Of a stretch of 64,000 bases of DNA, positions 30,852 to 43,787 are shown in pieces; within the stretch, counting starts at the first letter, position 1; every line of letters begins with the position of its first letter. The position numbers and the translations under genes are program-made. Origin of the DNA: Ectothiorhodospiraceae bacterium (lineage in GTDB: Bacteria; Pseudomonadota; Gammaproteobacteria; Nitrococcales; Aquisalimonadaceae); contig JAFIFU010000004.1 of NCBI GenBank assembly GCA_020831885.1, positions 62,001 to 126,000 on the forward strand. The letters are read 5' to 3'. The notes beneath the pieces are model-generated. The model did no database searches and was not told the origin of the DNA. It saw only the letters and a program-made list of their open reading frames with translations.

Positions 30852-33258
30852 GTTATAATCAGTGCCCCCGCATGGGGGCGACGGTATGACGAACTCCGCG
30901 AACTCGGCTTAATGAAGCTTCAATCCGCGCCCCCGCGTGGGGGGCGACCCGACTTCGCCTGTTTCAACGTCGATGACATCGGTTTCAATCCGCGCCCCCG
31001 CGGGGGGGGCGACGTCCGGACCGTGGCCGCGCGTGCGAGCCACATCGTAGTTTCAATCCGCGCCCCCGCGTGGGGGGCGACCTGCAGCTCCTCGTTCTGG
31101 ATTGACCAGCGGAGGCTGTTTCAATCCGCGCCCCCGCGTGGGGGGCGACCGCTCACACTTGCGCCGGTCGGCATAGGGGACGAGGTTTCAATCCGCGCCC
31201 CCGCGTGGGGGGCGACCTCGCGGAACCCGTGGACGGCGTTCTCAACCCGGCGGTTTCAATCCGCGCCCCCGCGTGGGGGGCGACTCGCTCAATCGGGACA
31301 ACGTGAGCGTGACGAGCGGTTTCAATCCGCGCCCCCGCGTGGGGGGCGACCCTGTAGGAGATAAGCCCCATCCACATAGATAACGGTTTCAATCCGCGCC
31401 CCCGCGTGGGGGGCGACCCCGGAAGCCGGAGCCGTTCGCATGATTCGCCTGTTTCAATCCGCGCCCCCGCGTGGGGGGCGACCCGGCAGTCGCCGGCTGG
31501 CGATTGGCGGCCGCAGTTTCAATCCGCGCCCCCGCGTGGGGGGCGACCTGTCCACGCGCGTTTGCGCCAGATCCTTCCAGGTTTCAATCCGCGCCCCCGC
31601 GTGGGGGGCGACACGGCGACCTGCCGGCCAGCCTGTTCCTGGAAATGTTTCAATCCGCGCCCCCGCGTGGGGGGCGACCACGGGACCCTCGGGGCGTGGT
31701 GCAGGCGCTGCTGTTTCAATCCGCGCCCCCGCGTGGGGGGCGACCTGGAGCAGTTCGCCGGTCTGCACATGCACAGGGTTTCAATCCGCGCCCCCGCGTG
31801 GGGGGCGACCCTGGAGCAGTTCGCCGGTCTGCACATGCACAGGGTTTCAATCCGCGCCCCCGCGTGGGGGGCGACCTCGGACATCGGTCTGCAGCTTCGC
31901 CCCGGCGAGTTTCAATCCGCGCCCCCGCGTGGGGGGCGACCCGTGCGAGCGAACAGCCCATGCTTCAGGCTGTTGTTTCAATCCGCGCCCCCGCGTGGGG
32001 GGCGACTCCTGCCTATGCCGCTGAGCTGGAGCGAGAAGAAGTTTCAATCCGCGCCCCCGCGTGGGGGGCGACTACCGCTACCGCTGGGAGACACGCGCAT
32101 GGGGATGTTTCAATCCGCGCCCCCGCGTGGGGGGCGACGCAGGATGTCCCAGGCTTCCGCGCCCATCTCGTGCGTTTCAATCCGCGCCCCCGCGTGGGGG
32201 GCGACGCGCCGGCCGATGGGGATGCAGTACTACGCCCGGGTTTCAATCCGCGCCCCCGCGTGGGGGGCGACGCCGCACGATTTGGCAGGGAGAGCACGAC
32301 CGCAGGTTTCAATCCGCGCCCCCGCGTGGGGGGCGACATGACTGCGAGTTCATCTTCCAGCGCCACGTGATGTTTCAATCCGCGCCCCCGCGTGGGGGGC
32401 GACCAGGGGTTCTCGGGCGGCCAGGCGCTGGTGCTGGTTTCAATCCGCGCCCCCGCGTGGGGGGCGACGAGGAGATTGCTCTGGCCGCCGCTCGGGCCCA
32501 GGTTTCAATCCGCGCCCCCGCGTGGGGGGCGACCTCCTCAGCGGACGGGCTGCACTCCCGGTCCGAGTTTCAATCCGCGCCCCCGCGTGGGGGGCGACGC
32601 GAAACGACCCTACCCGCTACCGTTGCCCGGGTGTTTCAATCCGCGCCCCCGCGTGGGGGGCGACGGCGGGACTACGACTTCCGGGCGATCACCAATCTGT
32701 TTCAATCCGCGCCCCCGCGTGGGGGGCGACGGCGTTGATGATCCTTGAGACGTTGACGGACGACGTTTCAATCCGCGCCCCCGCGTGGGGGGCGACCGGG
32801 TACGGGCGGTGGCATTGCCAGTCCGCTGGAGGTTTCAATCCGCGCCCCCGCGTGGGGGGCGACCTCGCAGACTCGGAGCGTTGAGTACACTATTACCGGT
32901 TTCAATCCGCGCCCCCGCGTGGGGGGCGACCACCGTGCACAGCAGTGCCGATGGCGGCGTCCTGGTTTCAATCCGCGCCCCCGCGTGGGGGGCGACCCAA
33001 GGATCACACCCACAAGGGCACCGCCCACAAGTTTCAATCCGCGCCCCCGCGTGGGGGGCGACGCGCATCGGTGAGCTGGTGATACCGCGGCTCGCGTTTC
33101 AATCCGCGCCCCCGCGTGGGGGGCGACCCAGGCGGTGATCGTGCTCAGCATGATTGCGGAGTTTCAATCCGCGCCCCCGCGTGGGGGGCGACAACCGACA
33201 TTGACGTAGACGAGGACTCTGACATGGTTTCAATCCGCGCCCCCGCGTGGGGGGCGAC
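30852..33258 (-). CRISPR. Type I-C CRISPR array: 37 repeats (32 nt, + strand GTTTCAATCCGCGCCCCCGCGTGGGGGGCGAC), 36 spacers of 33-36 nt; transcribed on minus strand (repeat GTCGCCCCCCACGCGGGGGCGCGGATTGAAAC)
   Basis: Manual count of repeat starts 30852(degenerate), 30917, 30982, 31050 ... 33161, 33227; leader-distal repeats degenerate; adjacent to cas2. Confidence 0.98.
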
Positions 33259-33440
33259 TGTCATCTCGTACCATCAGGTTTCCAATAAGAAAAGTAGTCA
33301 CTTTGCGCGAAGCAACGTACCACCTTCATCGGCGAGCCGACTTTGCATGAGAAAAAGTTACCAAATTATTAAAGAACTCAACTCGTTAGTTACTTTCGCG
33401 AACCCACCAGAAACTGAGTGTTCACTTCAGGTTCGCACGC
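33259..33440 (-). promoter_or_regulatory. CRISPR leader (AT-rich)
   Basis: AT-rich 182-nt interval between last perfect repeat and cas2 stop, in an otherwise GC-rich region; located at the non-degenerate end of the array. Confidence 0.8.
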
Positions 33441-33731
33441 TCAAAACAGTAGTGGACCACTCAGATCCAGCACTGGTTTGGCTCCCACGTGTTCGACACG
33501 CCGCTTCCAGTTCGAGCCAAGAAAATAGAATCGAAGACTGTCCAACTCTGGATCAATGATGCCGCAAAGCCGTTCTCGAAGCTGAACCCAACGGGCCGGA
33601 TCCACTTCGACTTCGAAGACGGAATACTGAACACGCTGCCCGTAGTCCAAACAGGCTTTTCCAACGCGCCGTAACCTGCGTTGTCCGGCTGGATCCTCGG
33701 TGCTGACGTCATAGGTAACGAGTACCATCAT
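33441..33731 (-). CDS. cas2: CRISPR-associated endonuclease Cas2
   Basis: MMVLVTYDVSTEDPAGQRRLRRVGKACLDYGQRVQYSVFEVEVDPARW. Confidence 0.97.
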   Translation of the reverse strand: MMVLVTYDVSTEDPAGQRRLRRVGKACLDYGQRVQYSVFEVEVDPARWVQLRERLCGIIDPELDSLRFYFLGSNWKRRVEHVGAKPVLDLSGPLLF

Positions 33732-33746
33732 CGCTACTCTCCCGGA

Positions 33747-34790
33747 TCACTTCCAAAGGAACGGGGGATAACCATCGAGATCCCCGCGCAAATGACGTGA
33801 AAGCAGCCTGGCCTGAAGCTGTGGGAGTAGCCCGACAGTTGTACGTTCATCCAGAAACGGGTGGCGAACCTCGTCCTGCTTCCTCTCCTGATAGGTCTTG
33901 ATCACACGTTTTCTCGCGCCCTCTTTCAGGGTCACGGCGCCGCCGTCCATGGCGTGGAAGTCCTTTTCCTTAATCTGACCGCGATTAATCAGTGACAACA
34001 CCATGCGATCGGCCAGCACCGGACGGAATTCCTCGACGAGGTCAAGGGCGAGACTGGGGCGCCCGGGACGAATTCGATGCAGAAAGCCGACCGCGGGATC
34101 GAGCCCAACTGTTTCCAGCGCGGACCGGCAATCGTGTGTCAGGAGCGTATACAGAAACGACAGCAGCGCATTGATACCATCAAGTGGCGGGCGACGGTTG
34201 CGGCCGGTGAATCGAAGCATTTGCTCACCATTTCGGCGGAGCAAGTGCGCGAAGACACCAAAGTACGTATTTGCAGCTTCTCCTTCTAGGCCACGCAGCC
34301 GCTCGTTATTCGACTCGGTCGCGACGCGCCGGAGCACATTTGTCAGGCTCTTCTCAGCGTCGCGAAGGCGGTTTTCACCACTACGGGCCATGGTTTGCGC
34401 GTGATCGCGCAGGGCGCGCCGCAGCACCGCTCGCTGATTGTGCACCTTTCCGGCGACCACACTTCGCACTATGGAAGTACATGTTTCCGAATTCTCGCTT
34501 CGGCGATACTGCTCCATACGTAAGACGACGTTGCCGGATACCGGCCCCTCAACACGGGCCAGAAACCGCCCATTTCGATCCAGAAAGCAGACCGTAACGC
34601 CTTCTTGGCTGCAATAACCCAACAATTGCGGCGAAAGTAGCGCCCGTCCGATACAAACCACCCCACCAACCATGTGGATGGGAACACGCCCGGATTCCTT
34701 TCCGTCGACGTCCATGACGATGTTGGCACCGTCTTTGTGTAACCAGGCACCTTCGGTGGTGACATAGAGTGTGTTGAGATGACGGCGCAT
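33747..34790 (-). CDS. cas1: Type I-C CRISPR-associated endonuclease Cas1
   Basis: MRRHLNTLYVTTEGAWLHKDGANIVMDVDGKESGRVPIHMVGGVVCIGRALLSPQLLGYCSQEGVTVCFLDRNGRFLARVEGP...NALLSFLYTLLTHDCRSALETVGLDPAVGFLH. Confidence 0.97.
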   Translation of the reverse strand: MRRHLNTLYVTTEGAWLHKDGANIVMDVDGKESGRVPIHMVGGVVCIGRALLSPQLLGYCSQEGVTVCFLDRNGRFLARVEGPVSGNVVLRMEQYRRSENSETCTSIVRSVVAGKVHNQRAVLRRALRDHAQTMARSGENRLRDAEKSLTNVLRRVATESNNERLRGLEGEAANTYFGVFAHLLRRNGEQMLRFTGRNRRPPLDGINALLSFLYTLLTHDCRSALETVGLDPAVGFLHRIRPGRPSLALDLVEEFRPVLADRMVLSLINRGQIKEKDFHAMDGGAVTLKEGARKRVIKTYQERKQDEVRHPFLDERTTVGLLPQLQARLLSRHLRGDLDGYPPFLWK

Positions 34791-34797
34791 TCCGCAC

Positions 34798-35421
34798 CTA
34801 CTCCAATGTCCGTTTCAGCCAGCTTTGGACTCTAGTCTTGCGACTCAGGCGCTTGGGTTGACAAATTTCCGCCAACGAGCAGCTGCCACAAAGCTTTGTC
34901 GAATAATGCGGTGGGGGTGTGCGGCAGTTCAGAATCATGGCTCGCGCGGCCAAGGCAGTATGTTCTGTAAGCGCCCGCAGCTCGTCATCGAAGGCGACAG
35001 AGGTTCGACGGCGTCGCTGATCGTAGTAAAGCGCACCGGAGGGAATATCGACCTGGAACATCTCTTCGAGGCACAAGGCTTGAGCGCAGAGCTGCACTTC
35101 GTCCGCCCGATGTCCCTTTGGTTTCCCCCGTTTGTACTCAACCGGCGTAATTCTCCGTGACGCGTTGCGATCATCCAGTTCCAACAGATCAGCCACACCT
35201 ATGAGCCCGAGACGCTCGGAAGTGAGCGGCAATGAAGTCACGTAACGCACGCCGTCGCGACGCCGTTGGGCCTCTGTGTCCACGCGACCATGAACCACCC
35301 CCCCTTCCGCCGTTAGCCGGTTCTCTGCCCACTGCCGCTCCACATGGATCAGCGCACACTGACGGGGGCAGTAGAGATAGTGCTGGAGGGCGGACAAGGG
35401 AATATGATCTGTCTCCTCCAT
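34798..35421 (-). CDS. cas4: CRISPR-associated protein Cas4
   Basis: MEETDHIPLSALQHYLYCPRQCALIHVERQWAEN...PVEYKRGKPKGHRADEVQLCAQALCLEEMF...CGSCSLAEIC (Fe-S cysteines). Confidence 0.96.
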   Translation of the reverse strand: MEETDHIPLSALQHYLYCPRQCALIHVERQWAENRLTAEGGVVHGRVDTEAQRRRDGVRYVTSLPLTSERLGLIGVADLLELDDRNASRRITPVEYKRGKPKGHRADEVQLCAQALCLEEMFQVDIPSGALYYDQRRRRTSVAFDDELRALTEHTALAARAMILNCRTPPPHYSTKLCGSCSLAEICQPKRLSRKTRVQSWLKRTLE

Positions 35422-35440
35422 CACCCTACTCCTGTCCCAA

Positions 35441-36307
35441 TTACAGTCGCTCCTCAACTGCAACACCGTCCGGAAGCCCGTCTCGAAGGACCTGCACATG
35501 ATAGTCGTGAAAGCTCCTGGCGGGTCCGCTGTCATCGCCAGAGCGTTCGACCACAACACGATCGAACAGCGTATGGGCAGGAGCATTCCCCATCGGGTTA
35601 TCGTGTCGAAAAGTGATCAGCTTTCGAGCCGCCATCTCGCCCCGGGCCGCGGAACGGTCATGCTCGAACATGTTTATCAGCGCCCGCCACAGCAACTCCA
35701 AATCATCTTCCGAAAATCCAGTGCGCTCGCCAAGTTTCGCGGAGATGAAACCATGTGCGCGGTACAGTCCGTAGGGCACCAGATGCTTCCGGCCCATGGT
35801 TCGCTCTTTCTCCAAATCCCGCTCATTGGTAACCGCCATACGGGTGATAGAGACTTCGAGCGGCACGATGGGCTCGATAGAGCTGGCAAAGGCCAATTGA
35901 ACTGGCCCTCGCACCTGGCCACAGTTCACTTCCGTAGTCATCACAGCGCCGAAGGCACGGACGTCAAAGAAGTTTCTACACATCCATGCAGTTAGCTCTT
36001 GCGCCTGGGCTTGGTCTCTGGGCAACTTCTTTGATACCGGCTCAATATCCAGCGCCTCATACGCTTTACTGTGTTGCTCGTTGAGTACTGATCGCTCCTG
36101 CATGTAGATAGCGTATCCAGGCTCGCCCCCCTTCTCCAAGGTTACGTAATTCCGGAGCTTGCGCTTCAGACACACGTCGGTCACCAAGCCTTGGTTAGTT
36201 TCCGGGTCAAGACGCGGAAGGTTTCCGGCGTCCGGATCGCCGTTCGGGTTGCCGTTGGTAACGTCGAAAAGGTAGACAAACTCGTAGCGATTGGCTATGG
36301 CATGCAT
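35441..36307 (-). CDS. cas7c: Type I-C CRISPR-associated protein Cas7/Csd2
   Basis: [50 protein letters not shown]. Confidence 0.97.
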
Positions 36308-36310
36308 TGC

Positions 36311-36712
36311 TTATTCTCCTTCGTGTTTCTTGTCCGGGGCGCCTTTCTCACATTTTCGGGTGAAACGTGCCTGCGTTTGATGGTAATAGCCGATGGAAAA
36401 CTGCCCTTGATCTTCGATGCGCAGGCTGCGCGGAAACGCCGTACTCAGGCCGTCCATAATCTCTCCGATCTCACGCTCCAGCGTGACCGCCAGACCGGGC
36501 TTATCCTTGCGCAATCTGCCCAGATGGTGCTGCGTGTTCCGGAGTAGAACTGGAAAAATGGCCGCCGGCGTAGCCGATGCAGCTCCGTAATAGCGATCCC
36601 TGATCGTCGCATTCACTTGGTCGCCAAGCGCGCTGCGCTGGACGTTCTCCAGCACAGCGAACAGGCGCCCCAGTCGATACCCCGGGGCAACGGATTCCGG
36701 ATCCAGACTCAT
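36311..36712 (-). CDS. cas11c: Candidate Cas11c small subunit translated from an internal start inside cas8c
   Basis: In-frame ATG at 36712 preceded on minus strand by AGGGAGGTGACC (perfect SD GGAGGTGA); product [65 protein letters not shown]..., 133 aa. Confidence 0.75.
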
Positions 36713-38104
36713 GGTCACCTCCCTATTAATTCCCTTGACGCCCAGACGCCGGTCGCGCGCCAGGACAGCTTTGCAGAGCGCGACGCGAACGCCAGAAATG
36801 TCTCCGTCCGCGCGCATACGCATGACGACATTCGCAAGTAGGGGACGCGGATAACGTCCGCCCGTTAAAATCGCCCGGGTTAATTCACCGGCGAGCTGAG
36901 GCGGAATTTTCTTCGCCTTGTCGTTAACCTCTCGGCTGGGTGCAGTGGCATAAAGCAATCGCCAAACAGCGGGCTCCGTCTTCCACGGTCTCGGTTCCAT
37001 GGCGAGATCCTGGTAATGCTCGGCCAAGCGTCGGGTAAAATACTCTAGACTTCCAGTCTGCCAAAACCGGATTGAGAGCCTTGACGCATTGGGGGCGAGA
37101 CCGAGCACGAAGATCCGGGTGCCTTCTACTAGATCAGCATTAATCTCGCGCAGCGGTTGGCCTTTAGCGACCGCCTCCAGCACCCCCCTTAGTTTGGCGG
37201 CTTCCTGCATGTCGTCAGCAGGGGGGGCCAGCAAATCGGCGAACACACGCTCCGCTTCCGATTCCTGTTGGTGCGTTTCCGCCTGCGCCCAGAAAACGAC
37301 CGTCGCATCACCGATCTGGATGCGTTGCCGGTTGTGCTCGCCACGCCGAAGGAGGTAGTTTAGGGCGGTTGTGTAGGCAAACGCGACCTGTTCGGCAACG
37401 GGTGCATTCTCACCCTGCTTTTTCCCGTAGGAATCGAATGCGTCAAGATTGAAGGACACGATTGACGCGCCGGCGGTCTGTGCGCCGTCTACCCCCTTGA
37501 TGGAAGGGTGAAGCCGAGCAATCGGAGCCCGCTCACCGGTCACCAGGCACGTCGCATCCGCACCTGTCTCACCACCGATCATACGCGCCCGGAGTACCCG
37601 CGCTGCGGGTCGCTCGTGCAAGTAGCGTTCCTCACCGTCTAGGCGGAAGACCAAATTCGCATCAAGCATATCGTCATTGACTATTGGCGGCCCGAAGTCC
37701 TCGGGCGACCACCGCTCAAGAAAAGCGAGCAGGGCCAGCAAGCCAGCGTCCGTTTCACCCGCCAGCCATTGCCGGTGCAAGTCCTTGAAGGCTTGATGCT
37801 CTTTAGTCGCTCGCTGCTTTGCTTTTTCCTCCGGCTTCCCGGTAACACCAAGTACGTAACTGGTCTTGTCCCAAAACAAGCAAGCAGCAATATTGACGGA
37901 ACGTTTGGGCCGTTGGGGAACCGGGAGACTCTTCGGGACAAGCCTCTTCCCCGACAACTCGCGGATGTCCTGTACATCAATCAATCGCCCGTCCGGAGCC
38001 AGAATGAGCGCGAAACTGATCTTCTCCTCGCTGAAACCGAAGGGCGGGACCTCTCGGCGTTCCGCCAATCGATGATAGTAGTCGAGAAGCGCGGAGAGCA
38101 TCAT
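36311..38104 (-). CDS. cas8c: Type I-C CRISPR-associated protein Cas8c/Csd1
   Basis: [86 protein letters not shown]. Confidence 0.96.
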
Positions 38105-38775
38105 GCCTTGACCTCCTCCCCATGAAACGGCGGGACTTGAATGACTCCGTCCCGCATTCGGGCGCGGAAGAACCGGGGGTCCATGCTGTTGCCTAAATCG
38201 ATGTCGTGGAGCATCCAACCCAAATCCCGCTCGCCAACCAGTGAGGCATGTGGTTCAGGCTGAGGCTCGTCCCCCTCCAAGAGGCGAAAGCTGGCGGGAA
38301 ACTCCCGGACTCCGAGGTATGGTGCGTGAAAGCACTGCCCTCTTCGGGCACGACGATTGAAGATGTCCAAGTGTTTTCCATCCGTCTCACCTTCATCCGC
38401 GTCCTTCACCAAGTCGAAATGCGCCTCGATGAGGTAGGCGACATCCCGAAGGATTGTTGCGGCACGCTGCTGGCGATCTTCGTCGACGTAAGTGGCGAGG
38501 ACATCGGCTCGACCTGCCTTCATGGATTTCCGGATATTGGTGGCTGAGATTTTGCTGCTGATCTCATTGCGCCGGATGGATTCAAATCGAATGGGCTTTA
38601 GGACGCGAATTCGATCTATTGTCCATCTAATTGCGGGTTTCCAGTGGATTGCCTCAAGAATTCCGCGGGCCGCGGAAGGCGTTATCACGTCGTAGGAGAC
38701 GCGCTCCACCTTCATCTCTGGCCGGGTGAAGCAAGCGCGCTCACCCCAAACGAGAAGTCGCACTCCGTAAGCCAT
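38101..38775 (-). CDS. cas5c: Type I-C CRISPR-associated protein Cas5
   Basis: [71 protein letters not shown]. Confidence 0.97.
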
Positions 38776-38813
38776 GGTACTCCCCCAATCGTAATTCCCA
38801 CCCGTCCGCACGC

Positions 38814-41051
38814 CTACCACAGCAAGCGCTCGGCCCTCATGAAATCTGGGTCATCCCAATGCAGGCCGAAACGATCGTCATACAGGTCCGGGTTGACCAA
38901 GCACATGAATTGCTCGCCGAACTGTTGGGACGCAACTGGCTGAATGGCATCTGCATTGCGCAGCCGTTGATAGGCACGTTGTGGGACCTGGACGGTGTAG
39001 GGCTGCAAGCGCCGCGCAATACCTCCACACGACTCAGCAAACTCCAAGTCACGTAACGCTGCTTGCACCACCTTATCCCCCTTCAACGGAATGATCACGG
39101 GGTACTGCGAACTCTCGATCATCCGGAATTCGGTTGCCAGAGTTTCAAAAGGAATGCCTTCCAAACGCCCCTCCTCGACGCGTCCCAGCAGGTCATAGGC
39201 ATCCAACTCATTGGAGCCCTTTCTCCAGTAAAGCAGTCGGAAATACCGTTGAATGGCGGCAAGCGACATCGGATCGTCGGGATGCTGCCGGAGCACCTCT
39301 CGCGCCGCTTCGGCAAACTGACGAAGCTCAGGCGGCGGTGCCCAATCGGCGTTGTCGACGGCGAATATCAGTACCTTGCTGCATTCCGGCGGCCGACGTC
39401 CTTCCCGGTTGCAGCGGCCAGCGGCCTGCGCGATCGAATCCAAGCCAGCCTCGGCACGCAAGACGATAGGGAAGTCCACATCTACCCCGGCCTCTATTAG
39501 CGACGTTGCCACCAGTCTGCACGGCTCACCAGCCGCCAATCTCTGCCGTACACGCGCTAGTACCTGGCTACGGTGCTTGGCGCACATGAGGGTCGTCAAA
39601 TGACACGCACCCGGCGCTTCGGCGATCGCTTCATATAGCGAACGTGCATGCCGTCGGTTATTCACGATGCATAGCACTTGCCCGTGCTCCATCAGATAGC
39701 GTGCAAGCGCATCGTCGTCCAGCCTCCCGACATGGCACACATCGACCCGTTTCAACACCCTGTTCAACCGCTCAGGGCATGGCGCCAACTCACGCACGTC
39801 TTCCAAACCATCGACGAAATGTGGCGCCTCCAAAGCCGGCTGCGTCGCGGTGCACAACACAATACTGTTACCGTAGTTCCTGGCCAATTCCTCAATCACG
39901 GCGACGCTTGGCCGCAGCACCTTGAGTGGGAAAGTCTGCGCCTCATCCAGAATCACAACGCTGCGGGCGATGTTATGTAGCTTTCGACAGCGGGAGGGAC
40001 GATCGGCAAATAAGCTCTCGAAGAACTGCACGGCCGTCGTCACGACAACGGGCGCATCCCAATTCTCCATCGCCAATTTTAGTTTCTCTCGAGACTGGGG
40101 GCTCTTCATCCTGTCATCGAAAAACGCGCTGTGATGTTCAAGCACCGCGTGATCTCCCAGATCTCCGAATGCACGACGAAAAACCGCGGCATTTTGCTCC
40201 ACAACGCTCGTGAACGGTATGACGTAGATGATCCGCCGTAAATCGTGTGCCAAAGCATGGTCCAGAGCAAACGCTAGCGACGCGAGCGTTTTACCGCCCC
40301 CGGTCGGGACGGTGAGCGAGAATAATCCCGGCATTTTTGATGCCTTGCCACGCACCACGCGCAGTATTTCCCCACGTTCTCGATTCACAGCAGTATCGGC
40401 TGGAAGTTGTTTAAGGAAGGTGTCGAGGCGCACCCTCAAGTCAGTCAGGTTGGGTGAAGGGAGGTTGCGAGGCAGCTTACGACTCAGAACCTCTGCAAAG
40501 TAACTCTCGGTGTCAATGAAGTCCGCATCGACAAGACACGAAAACACCATTCGTGCAAGAAACGCGAGTTGAAACTGACCGCGCTTCGTATGGGGTCGGA
40601 AATCAGCTGGCGGAGTCAAAGGGCCCTTGGGCAGCTTAATCTCCCGACGCCATTCGGGATGCAACTCCGGCAGCTCGCGGTTCAAGCGTTCCGCCAGCGC
40701 CGTGCGTACTTCAGTCTGACGGCCATTAGCCAAGCCTGCATGATGTCCGGCGATACCATAAGCCAGTAGATGCCCGACCGGACCGTACCGCTCACAAGCG
40801 ATGCGCGCCCCCCACGTCGAATGGTCCACCTTGGCCACAGCACCGCGCAGTCGACTCTGGAACTCCGCGGAATATTTGCCAATGTCGTGCAGCAAACCCG
40901 CCGCATAGGCCAACTCCTGACCTGAAAAGGGTGCAGCGTAGTCCGCCGCTCGACGGGCCGTGTTGTAGAGGTGATCAGCCAACCCATGCCAACATGATGC
41001 ATCGGAATCCGCCAGCGAGTGTGCGTAGAACCCGCCCTGTCGCTCAGTCAT
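38814..41051 (-). CDS. cas3: CRISPR-associated helicase-nuclease Cas3 (HD + SF2 helicase)
   Basis: [11 protein letters not shown] motif, [53 protein letters not shown]; start [12 protein letters not shown] at 41051 (or MSGEM at 41063). Confidence 0.95.
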
Positions 41052-41052
41052 C

Positions 41053-41550
41053 TCACCACTCATCAGCGGAAAAGCCGGTCCCAAGTAAAGCTCTGCTTAA
41101 AACGGATCTCACTTCCCCGCTCACCTCATCATACTCCAAGATTTCGACGTCCGACGGGACCAGGTGCCCGAAGTTTCGCGCATAATAGGCAGCAAGAGTC
41201 TCACCCCGTTTCTCGCTGAAATCGCGCAGCACAAATAGCACCTTGCGGAATTGAGGCAGCGCCAGATGAAAGTAATACATAGCCTCATTCCAGGCGGTGA
41301 TTTTTGCACTTGGCACGTTGCCACCAGTAGTCCACCGATGTGACTTGCACTGGACCAAAACCTCCGGCTGATCGGAACCAGGGTCAAACTGCCTGCTCTT
41401 CTTCTCAGCAGCCACCCCGACAGACACTGAGTAATTACTGCTCAGAGAAATGCTTTTTCGACGGAAATCCTCCTTTTCCACGACCTCAAAATCTCGCCCA
41501 ACATGAGCATTAGATATAGATCCGATTCTCTGAAATTTTTTTACTTTCAT
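41053..41550 (-). CDS. PD-(D/E)XK-like nuclease/hypothetical protein translationally adjacent to cas3
   Basis: GRDFEVVEKEDFRRKSISLS...SRQFDPGSDQPEVLVQCKSHRWTTGGNVPSAKITAWNEAMYYFHLALPQFRKVLFVLRDFSEKRGETLAAYYARNFGHLVPSDVEILEYDE; D-(x)n-(Q)xK core pattern. Confidence 0.6.
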   Translation of the reverse strand: MKVKKFQRIGSISNAHVGRDFEVVEKEDFRRKSISLSSNYSVSVGVAAEKKSRQFDPGSDQPEVLVQCKSHRWTTGGNVPSAKITAWNEAMYYFHLALPQFRKVLFVLRDFSEKRGETLAAYYARNFGHLVPSDVEILEYDEVSGEVRSVLSRALLGTGFSADEW

Positions 41551-41662
41551 ATCGCTCTAACACTCGACTTTAGAGCCGCGAAAAGCAGGGAAAACAACAA
41601 TCGAGTAAGTCATCTAAATTCACATTGTTCGCGGCGTCCCACCATCCGGCTGGCGCAAACCC

Positions 41663-42029
41663 TTATATCGCCGCATCAGATCGGTCATACGATGCGTCCT
41701 CGCCAGCATAGAAAAGTGCATTTGGCGGGTTGATCGACCAATCAAGGAGGCGTGTCGGTAGCCCGTGGTGCTGTGCGTGAAATAGCTTTTCAGCGCAACT
41801 AAATTTTCTCAGATCGAAGCAAGGGATGGAATAATTCTCGAAGTCTTCAATCAGATACTCTTCAATATGTGCAATCGCGTCATATCCGTCTTTCGTAATT
41901 TCTGCGTAACGGCTCATTCCTGGCAAGAGCGGCCATTCCGAGACTGCTTGCCCTCGAAACATCTCAACACCTTGGGCGTCTTCGTTTCCCCATTCGAGCA
42001 AATCGATTATCTTTCTAATTTGTTTCATA
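41663..42029 (-). pseudogene. FRG-domain protein, truncated
   Basis: MKQIRKIIDLLEWGNEDAQGVEMFRGQAVSEWPLLPGMSRY...AEKLFHAQHHGLPTRLLDWSINPPNALFYAGEDASYDRSDAAI*; FRGQ..WPLLPG and HHGLPTRLLDW motifs, terminates right after the core. Confidence 0.6.
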
Positions 42030-42596
42030 TCTCGATTTCGTTTAACAGCTGTACTGGACAGAATCTGTATAACACGCCTCCTCCCATGTCCTGTTGCCCG
42101 GTCGTTCCGGGCTGATTCCACTTCCGGCTTGCCCGTATGGAAAAACTCTTGTGGCGCGTACTCGGGCGGGATTGGCGGTGCTAGGGAAGCGAGTCGTGAT
42201 GGTGGAGTAAGGGCATGGCGGCGGCCGGTGACGGCGGGTGCCATGCAGACTCTGTGTAGCGCCGATAGAGCGGCGAAGCATGCTGCACCGGGTTGGGTTC
42301 CCTGAAGGTGTTCCGCTTGTGCTTATTGACCGGAAACCGGTGGGCCGCAACATGTCCACGCTCCCTGTATCTCTTCGGACTGCGCCGATTGATTATTCTT
42401 TTATCTCTGAGAAGGTTAGCGGTGCCGGGCAAATTGCGCAAACTGGCTTACCCCTGCTCTTTTCTGACCGGGAACCGATCCGTCAAGGTGGATCCAGCGC
42501 AAGGGGCCGGGTGCCTTGCATCCCAGCCGATTCAGGCCCTCCCCAACAGCGGCCGGAACCGCCGCGCGGGGCGATGAACTCCCCGGGGGGCGTTGG

Positions 42597-43787
42597 TTAC
42601 ACCACGCCCTGCTCCCGCAGTGCGGCGATGTCCGTTTCCGAATAGCCCAGTTCCTGCAGGATGGTATTGGTATGTTCACCCAGTGTGGGGGCGCGGCGGT
42701 GGACGCCGGCGCGGAGGGAGGAGAAGCGCACGGGGGTGTCGCTGACGAAGGCGCCCTTGCCGTCGGGCAGGCCGGGGTAGTCCACCGCCTGGAGGAAACC
42801 CATGGCCTGGATGTGGGCGTCGTCCAGGGCCTGTTGCGGGGCGTACACCTGCCCGGCGGGGATGCGCGCCTCGTCCAGGGCGGTGAGCGCTTCTTCGGTG
42901 GTGCGTTCGGCGCACCAGGCGGCCATCAGCTCGCTGAGCTCCTCGCCGTTGTCGCCCCGGGCCTGGTCGCTGACGAAGCGGGGGTCGTCCAGCAGGGCTT
43001 CCTGACCCAGCAGCCGGCACCAGCGGCGGAACAGGGGTTCGCCCACACAGTGCACGAGAATCCAGCCGTCGCGGGTGGCGAAAGTGTCCGCCGGGCCGGC
43101 GCCCTGGCTGCGGTTCCAGGTGCTGACCCGGTCGGGCTTGATGGCGGCCTGCTCGATGAGGTTGGCGGCCATGAAGGTCAGTGCCGTGCCCAGCAGCGAG
43201 CCTTCCACGTGCTGGCCCTCTCCGGTCTTGTCCCGGTGCATGAGCGCGGCGAGGGTGCCGATGGCGCTGGACAGGGCGGTGCCGAAGTCGGCGAAGTTGG
43301 TGATGGTTTTGGTGGGGCGCCCGGGCGGGCCGGAGAGGTACATGGCGCCGGAGAGCGCCTGGGCCACGCCGTCGAAGCCCACCCGGTCGCTGGCGGGGCC
43401 GCCGGTGCCGAAGGCGGTGACCGTGGTCAGGATGATGTCGGGCCGCACCGCCTTCAGGCTTTCGTAGTCCAGCCCCATGGCCGTGAGGCCGGAGGGGGGC
43501 AGGTTGGCCACCACCACGTCGGCGGTGGCCACCAGTTTACGCACGATCTCCCGGCCCTCGTCCTTCATGGGGTTGAGGGTCATGCCCAGCTTGTTGCGGT
43601 TCATCTGCATGTAGCTGGCGCCGTCCTGCTGCGGCGTGATGGGCATGACGTAGCGGTCTTCGCTGCCGCTGATCTTCTCGATGCGGATCACCTCCGCGCC
43701 CAGGTCGGCCAGTACGGCGGCACACCAGGGGCCGGCGATATAGCGGCCGAAATCCAGTACCCGAACACCTTCCAGCACTGCGGTCAT
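42597..43787 (-). CDS. CaiB/BaiF CoA-transferase
   Basis: [49 protein letters not shown]. Confidence 0.94.
   Translation of the reverse strand: MTAVLEGVRVLDFGRYIAGPWCAAVLADLGAEVIRIEKISGSEDRYVMPITPQQDGASYMQMNRNKLGMTLNPMKDEGREIVRKLVATADVVVANLPPSGLTAMGLDYESLKAVRPDIILTTVTAFGTGGPASDRVGFDGVAQALSGAMYLSGPPGRPTKTITNFADFGTALSSAIGTLAALMHRDKTGEGQHVEGSLLGTALTFMAANLIEQAAIKPDRVSTWNRSQGAGPADTFATRDGWILVHCVGEPLFRRWCRLLGQEALLDDPRFVSDQARGDNGEELSELMAAWCAERTTEEALTALDEARIPAGQVYAPQQALDDAHIQAMGFLQAVDYPGLPDGKGAFVSDTPVRFSSLRAGVHRRAPTLGEHTNTILQELGYSETDIAALREQGVV

Follow-up and report, generated by a model that had tools for sequence, protein, structure and literature searches.

A PD-(D/E)XK-fold protein encoded beside a type I-C cas3 gene, a rare family member and probably not a CRISPR component

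A gene for a nuclease-like protein that directly precedes cas3 raises the question of whether it takes part in CRISPR interference or is a neighbor by chance. The gene lies in a stretch of 64,000 nucleotides from an Ectothiorhodospiraceae bacterium, referred to here as the window. The original prediction described it as a PD-(D/E)XK-like nuclease gene abutting cas3 and as a candidate accessory component of the type I-C operon.

The locus and the junction with cas3

The window carries the full canonical I-C set, cas3-cas5c-cas8c-cas7c-cas4-cas1c-cas2, on one strand, with the operon's own cas4 at 34798-35586 and the array beyond cas2. Within the array, two neighboring near-identical spacers (CTGGAGCAGTTCGCCGGTCTGCACATGCACAGG) at 31735-31866 represent a duplicated spacer-repeat unit. 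The features discussed below are:

41053..41550, minus strand: 165-residue orphan protein of predicted PD-(D/E)XK fold with E22, D56, Q67 and K69 (ORF, relatives, column counts, AlphaFold, Foldseek)
38814..41051, minus strand: cas3 of type I-C, Cas3c (PADLOC Cas3c, E=1.8e-223; N-terminus comparison with homologs)
33441..38820, minus strand: cas5c, cas8c, cas7c, cas4, cas1c and cas2 (NCBIfam matches above cut-off)
~30914..33259, no strand assigned: CRISPR array with 36 copies of a repeat of ~32 nt (repeat search)
41663..42244, minus strand: remnant of an FRG-domain gene, PADLOC PDC-S15 (Pfam PF08867, E=2e-16; PADLOC; frame inspection)

According to the ORF listing of the window, the gene at 41053-41550 on the minus strand begins with ATG and encodes 165 residues, exactly as had been claimed. 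The predicted junction is equally accurate: the stop codon (TGA, 41055-41053) is separated by a single G from the cas3 ATG at 41051, and the minus strand reads ...GAT GAG TGG TGA G ATG ACT GAG.... The alternative cas3 ATG at 41063, which would overlap the end of the ORF, is also present in the minus-strand sequence. Because close Cas3 homologs have their N-terminus about 4 residues ahead of the YYAHS motif, and the two candidate starts lie 7 (41051) and 11 (41063) residues ahead of FYAHS, we favor 41051 as the likely translation start. The tight TGA-G-ATG arrangement is what one would naturally expect at a polycistronic junction if the two genes were co-transcribed; as judged from the sequence, read-through transcription from the ORF into cas3, together with translational coupling, is possible. 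A scan for the sigma-70 consensus placed a single minus-strand promoter-like site upstream of the ORF, at 42035-42006, and none between 42006 and the cas3 start, although the frequency of such sites is near chance (2 found vs. 0.9 expected) and the scan is therefore weak.

Family, fold and active site

In a stringent scan of 84,980 genomes (one genome per species), relatives of the 165-residue protein are encoded at about 106 places, and for this reason the ORF is more than a chance reading frame. The scan used exact conserved peptide patterns, which miss distant members. The best 80 of the 106 relatives were retained for alignment; they are ~45-66% identical over the best segment and span Pseudomonadota, Bacillota, Chloroflexota, Rubrobacteraceae, Planctomycetes, an archaeal bin and others. 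The distribution is patchy: counting the window genome each time, the family occurs in 1 of 54 genomes of the order, in 3 of the 369 sampled from the class and in 2 of the 399 sampled from the phylum. The protein has no match among the Pfam, NCBIfam or PADLOC models, and neither a single-sequence search nor a profile search found a sequence relative in the PDB. With the PD-(D/E)XK superfamily the family shares the common core topology, the glutamate of motif I, the aspartate of motif II and the ExK of motif III, and the nearest Pfam lead there is Mrr_cat (PF04471). Profile searches gave weak Mrr_cat matches in only 2 of 71 members (best E=0.002), the window protein itself had none at E<=1, the Pfam gathering cut-off was not reached, and most members lack a fused recognition domain. 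A phage or viral origin was considered and rejected, given that no match turned up among phages or in either of two scans of viral contigs and that the one PHROG match is confined to its N-terminal 31 residues.

AlphaFold, supplied with the window protein and 69 relatives, returned a model with a mean pLDDT of 87.9 and values >90 over residues 21-150, in which a helix (14-31), three strands (37-46, 49-60 and 63-69), a second helix (81-96) and a fourth strand (102-108) form the core. This order of elements is the restriction-endonuclease-like topology (PMC1913061). Foldseek matches to the PDB are weak (best E=4.5e-3, TM 0.42; TM-scores overall ~0.2-0.5), and the better ones, namely Cdn1, SSO0001 (Cas4), EXO5, CdiA-CT, SfsA and AF2093, mostly have the restriction-endonuclease fold; viral matches include restriction and MmcB-like proteins. 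On the strength of the model, these matches and the conserved residues described next, the earlier guess of a PD-(D/E)XK fold is borne out.

The protein contains the motif GRDFE...FDPGS...VLVQCKSH. Across 82 sequences, E22, D56, E67 and K69, the standard PD-(D/E)XK set, are invariant wherever the column is covered, with the exception of the window copy at position 67, and C68, W73, P80, A82 and K83 are likewise invariant where covered. The D...(D/E)xK motif is thus present at the level of the family, and the predicted replacement of its glutamate by glutamine is confirmed as a peculiarity of the window copy, which alone has Q67 (codon CAG); every other member carries E there. This copy departs from the family at six further columns in which at least 85% of members agree (A25E, G33S, H53R, L57P, V86A and P98L), and its total of 7 such deviations is the second highest among the 82 sequences. 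Its terminal branch in the tree (0.36) was compared with those of its nearest sisters (0.18 and 0.22) and with the family median (0.31); as it is not extreme, a strong decay signal was rejected. Together with the intact ORF, this only moderately long branch means that the window copy may still be selected for something. In BtgZI, a type IIC restriction enzyme, glutamine likewise takes the place of the glutamate in a variant PD-(D/E)XK motif (PMC4081073), so loss of activity at Q67 is possible rather than certain, and the window copy may be either a still-active variant or a case of early decay. The likeness to BtgZI noted here is in the motif residue; BtgZI differs in being fused to a methyltransferase.

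Genomic settings of the relatives and of cas3

If the protein served the I-C system, its relatives might be expected near cas genes. All ORFs of 84 related loci were compared with the seven Cas proteins of the window, which itself acted as the positive control. With flanks of up to ~10 kb per side where the contig allows (1.5 kb only in two loci), a cas gene was found beside a relative in none of the 84, although draft contigs can hide adjacency. Of 50 relative-bearing genomes, 44 are without cas8c (present in 6) and 35 are without cas1. Where Cas1 is encoded (15 genomes), comparison of coordinates places it on a different contig from the relative in 14 cases; in the other genome the distance is 268 kb. 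The reverse survey started from 30 class-sample genomes in which Cas3 matched strongly, the window genome among them, and took in flanks of up to 1.5 kb; the genes upstream of cas3 vary between loci, and a relative of the 165-residue ORF is found upstream of none of the other 29. Nor did any of the papers listed in a literature search deal specifically with I-C accessory genes upstream of cas3. The homologs have a scattered distribution and are not enriched around cas loci, an outcome that the original prediction had named as refuting it; the proposed accessory role is therefore not supported by the sequence comparisons, whereas the fold and the adjacency to cas3 stand. The protein probably has no function in the I-C effector and would at most share the cas3 transcript.

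What does surround the relatives is varied. In 50 of 78 there is no same-strand gene within 30 bp, so most stand alone. A PADLOC search of 135 immediate neighbors gave 264 entries, and the 25 of them that were listed include type IV and type I restriction enzymes, PDC candidates, DolB, ZorD, AriAB and others, each neighbor family in 1-3 loci, with no Cas family among them. Such settings suggest that the gene is mobile and self-sufficient; a tendency of the family toward defense islands is plausible, judged by raw neighbor counts with no background set. The best reading of the family is of rare, mobile, single-gene nuclease-fold proteins. A different setting recurs in four loci of Nitrosomonadales and their relatives (L064, L066, L070 and L072), in which the gene is preceded by a member of one shared family (ClpA/B-like AAA in L070) and followed by a tRNA-synt_1c gene (GluQ-RS-like). 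This conserved chromosomal arrangement suggests a host role there.

Origin of the gene and competing explanations

The ORF occupies a stretch of low GC content (47-53% at 41000-42000; the cas genes have 55-62%, and the chromosome past 42500 has 64-71%). The next ORF upstream, at 41663-42244, shows FRG homology from about residue 65, covering positions 32-159 of a 276-position profile, and frame inspection shows that this gene is broken by an early stop. No convincing flanking repeats of an insertion were found within 40800-43000. The simplest account is that the low-GC stretch and the broken FRG gene represent a worn, horizontally acquired island adjoining the cas operon. FRG as a linked partner of the family was rejected, as no FRG relative occurs in any related locus; the genome has a second, separate FRG gene of 273 residues at another site (C8:179-484, locus L119).

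We consider it very likely that the 165-residue protein is a rare, mobile, single-gene member of the PD-(D/E)XK fold that was brought beside cas3 by recombination and is not a part of the I-C system, its adjacency to cas3 being most likely a matter of chance. The gene would have arrived on the low-GC island together with the FRG-domain gene, since broken, and recombination would then have placed it directly upstream of cas3. The relatives are most likely stand-alone metal-dependent DNA nucleases, in which E22, D56 and E67 are predicted to bind the metal and K69 to aid hydrolysis; their neighbors suggest a role in restriction or DNA processing. The window copy, with its glutamine, would either retain cleavage or be on the way to losing activity. 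Its stop one base ahead of the cas3 ATG may couple translation, and a transcript would be the most that it shares with cas3. One sub-case, differing solely in whether the window copy still works, is a pseudogene in the making, that is, a catalytically dead, decaying and functionless remnant of the island that is tolerated upstream of cas3. The sole loss of E67 among 82 sequences, the high number of deviations at conserved columns and the broken state of the adjoining FRG gene are consistent with this sub-case, but the frame is intact across 165 codons, the fold is confidently predicted, the branch is not extreme and BtgZI offers a precedent for glutamine; we regard it as possible, if somewhat doubtful.

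Far less probable is an ancillary I-C component, either a nuclease or a non-catalytic DNA-binding relative, co-expressed with cas3 and aiding interference. Adjacency on the same strand across one base and a restriction-endonuclease fold in the AlphaFold model agree with such a role, and the lowest Foldseek E-value belongs to the CRISPR ancillary nuclease Cdn1. Yet the surveys of related loci, relative-bearing genomes and other cas3 loci all argue against it, canonical I-C operons function without this protein, and the Cdn1 match reflects a generic nuclease fold. Can2, Card1 and Cdn1 are proteins of ~400 residues with a cyclic-oligoadenylate-sensing domain and a type III association; the window protein shares their nuclease fold but lies beside a type I-C locus and has no extra domain, its 165 residues forming just the nuclease core in the AlphaFold model, with no CARF domain and too little length for one. 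Cas4 (SSO0001, Foldseek E=7e-3) also has the superfamily fold, but no cysteine cluster is seen in the window protein and the operon has a separate cas4. A locus-specific regulator, whether an inactive DNA-binding nuclease fold or an ORF translated mainly for coupling to cas3, would fit the junction and the empty promoter scan between 42006 and the cas3 start; with no precedent among the relatives and given the weakness of that scan, it is extremely unlikely. We give just as little credence to a captured nuclease-fold protein that, after its catalytic Glu changed to Gln, was recruited by the I-C system in this lineage as a regulatory or DNA-binding partner coupled to cas3. The preferred reading of a mobile gene beside cas3 corrects a tempting case of guilt by adjacency: a defense-like gene that touches cas3 is not by that alone a CRISPR component.

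As a CRISPR finding the locus is ordinary; its modest interest lies in a nuclease-fold family that has no name yet and includes one active-site variant. This family is compact, highly conserved and spread over many phyla, has no model in Pfam, NCBIfam or PADLOC, and is a candidate single-gene defense or DNA-processing enzyme. Some of its members are extended. A Pseudidiomarina relative (L025:9794-10456) has an apparent N-terminal zinc-finger extension with cysteine pairs, and two Rubrobacteraceae relatives (L014:416-1371 and L021:8967-9907) have a C-terminal extension and overlap the gene that follows, which belongs to one family in both loci (ParE-like toxin in L014); they resemble a fusion of the nuclease fold with an antitoxin. 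In Escherichia coli, 409 of 5426 complete genomes contain an unannotated fragment of a relative (e.g., L123:4001-4221), about half the gene at ~72% DNA identity, which in strain 884 lies close to ORF6N and ImmA/IrrE genes.
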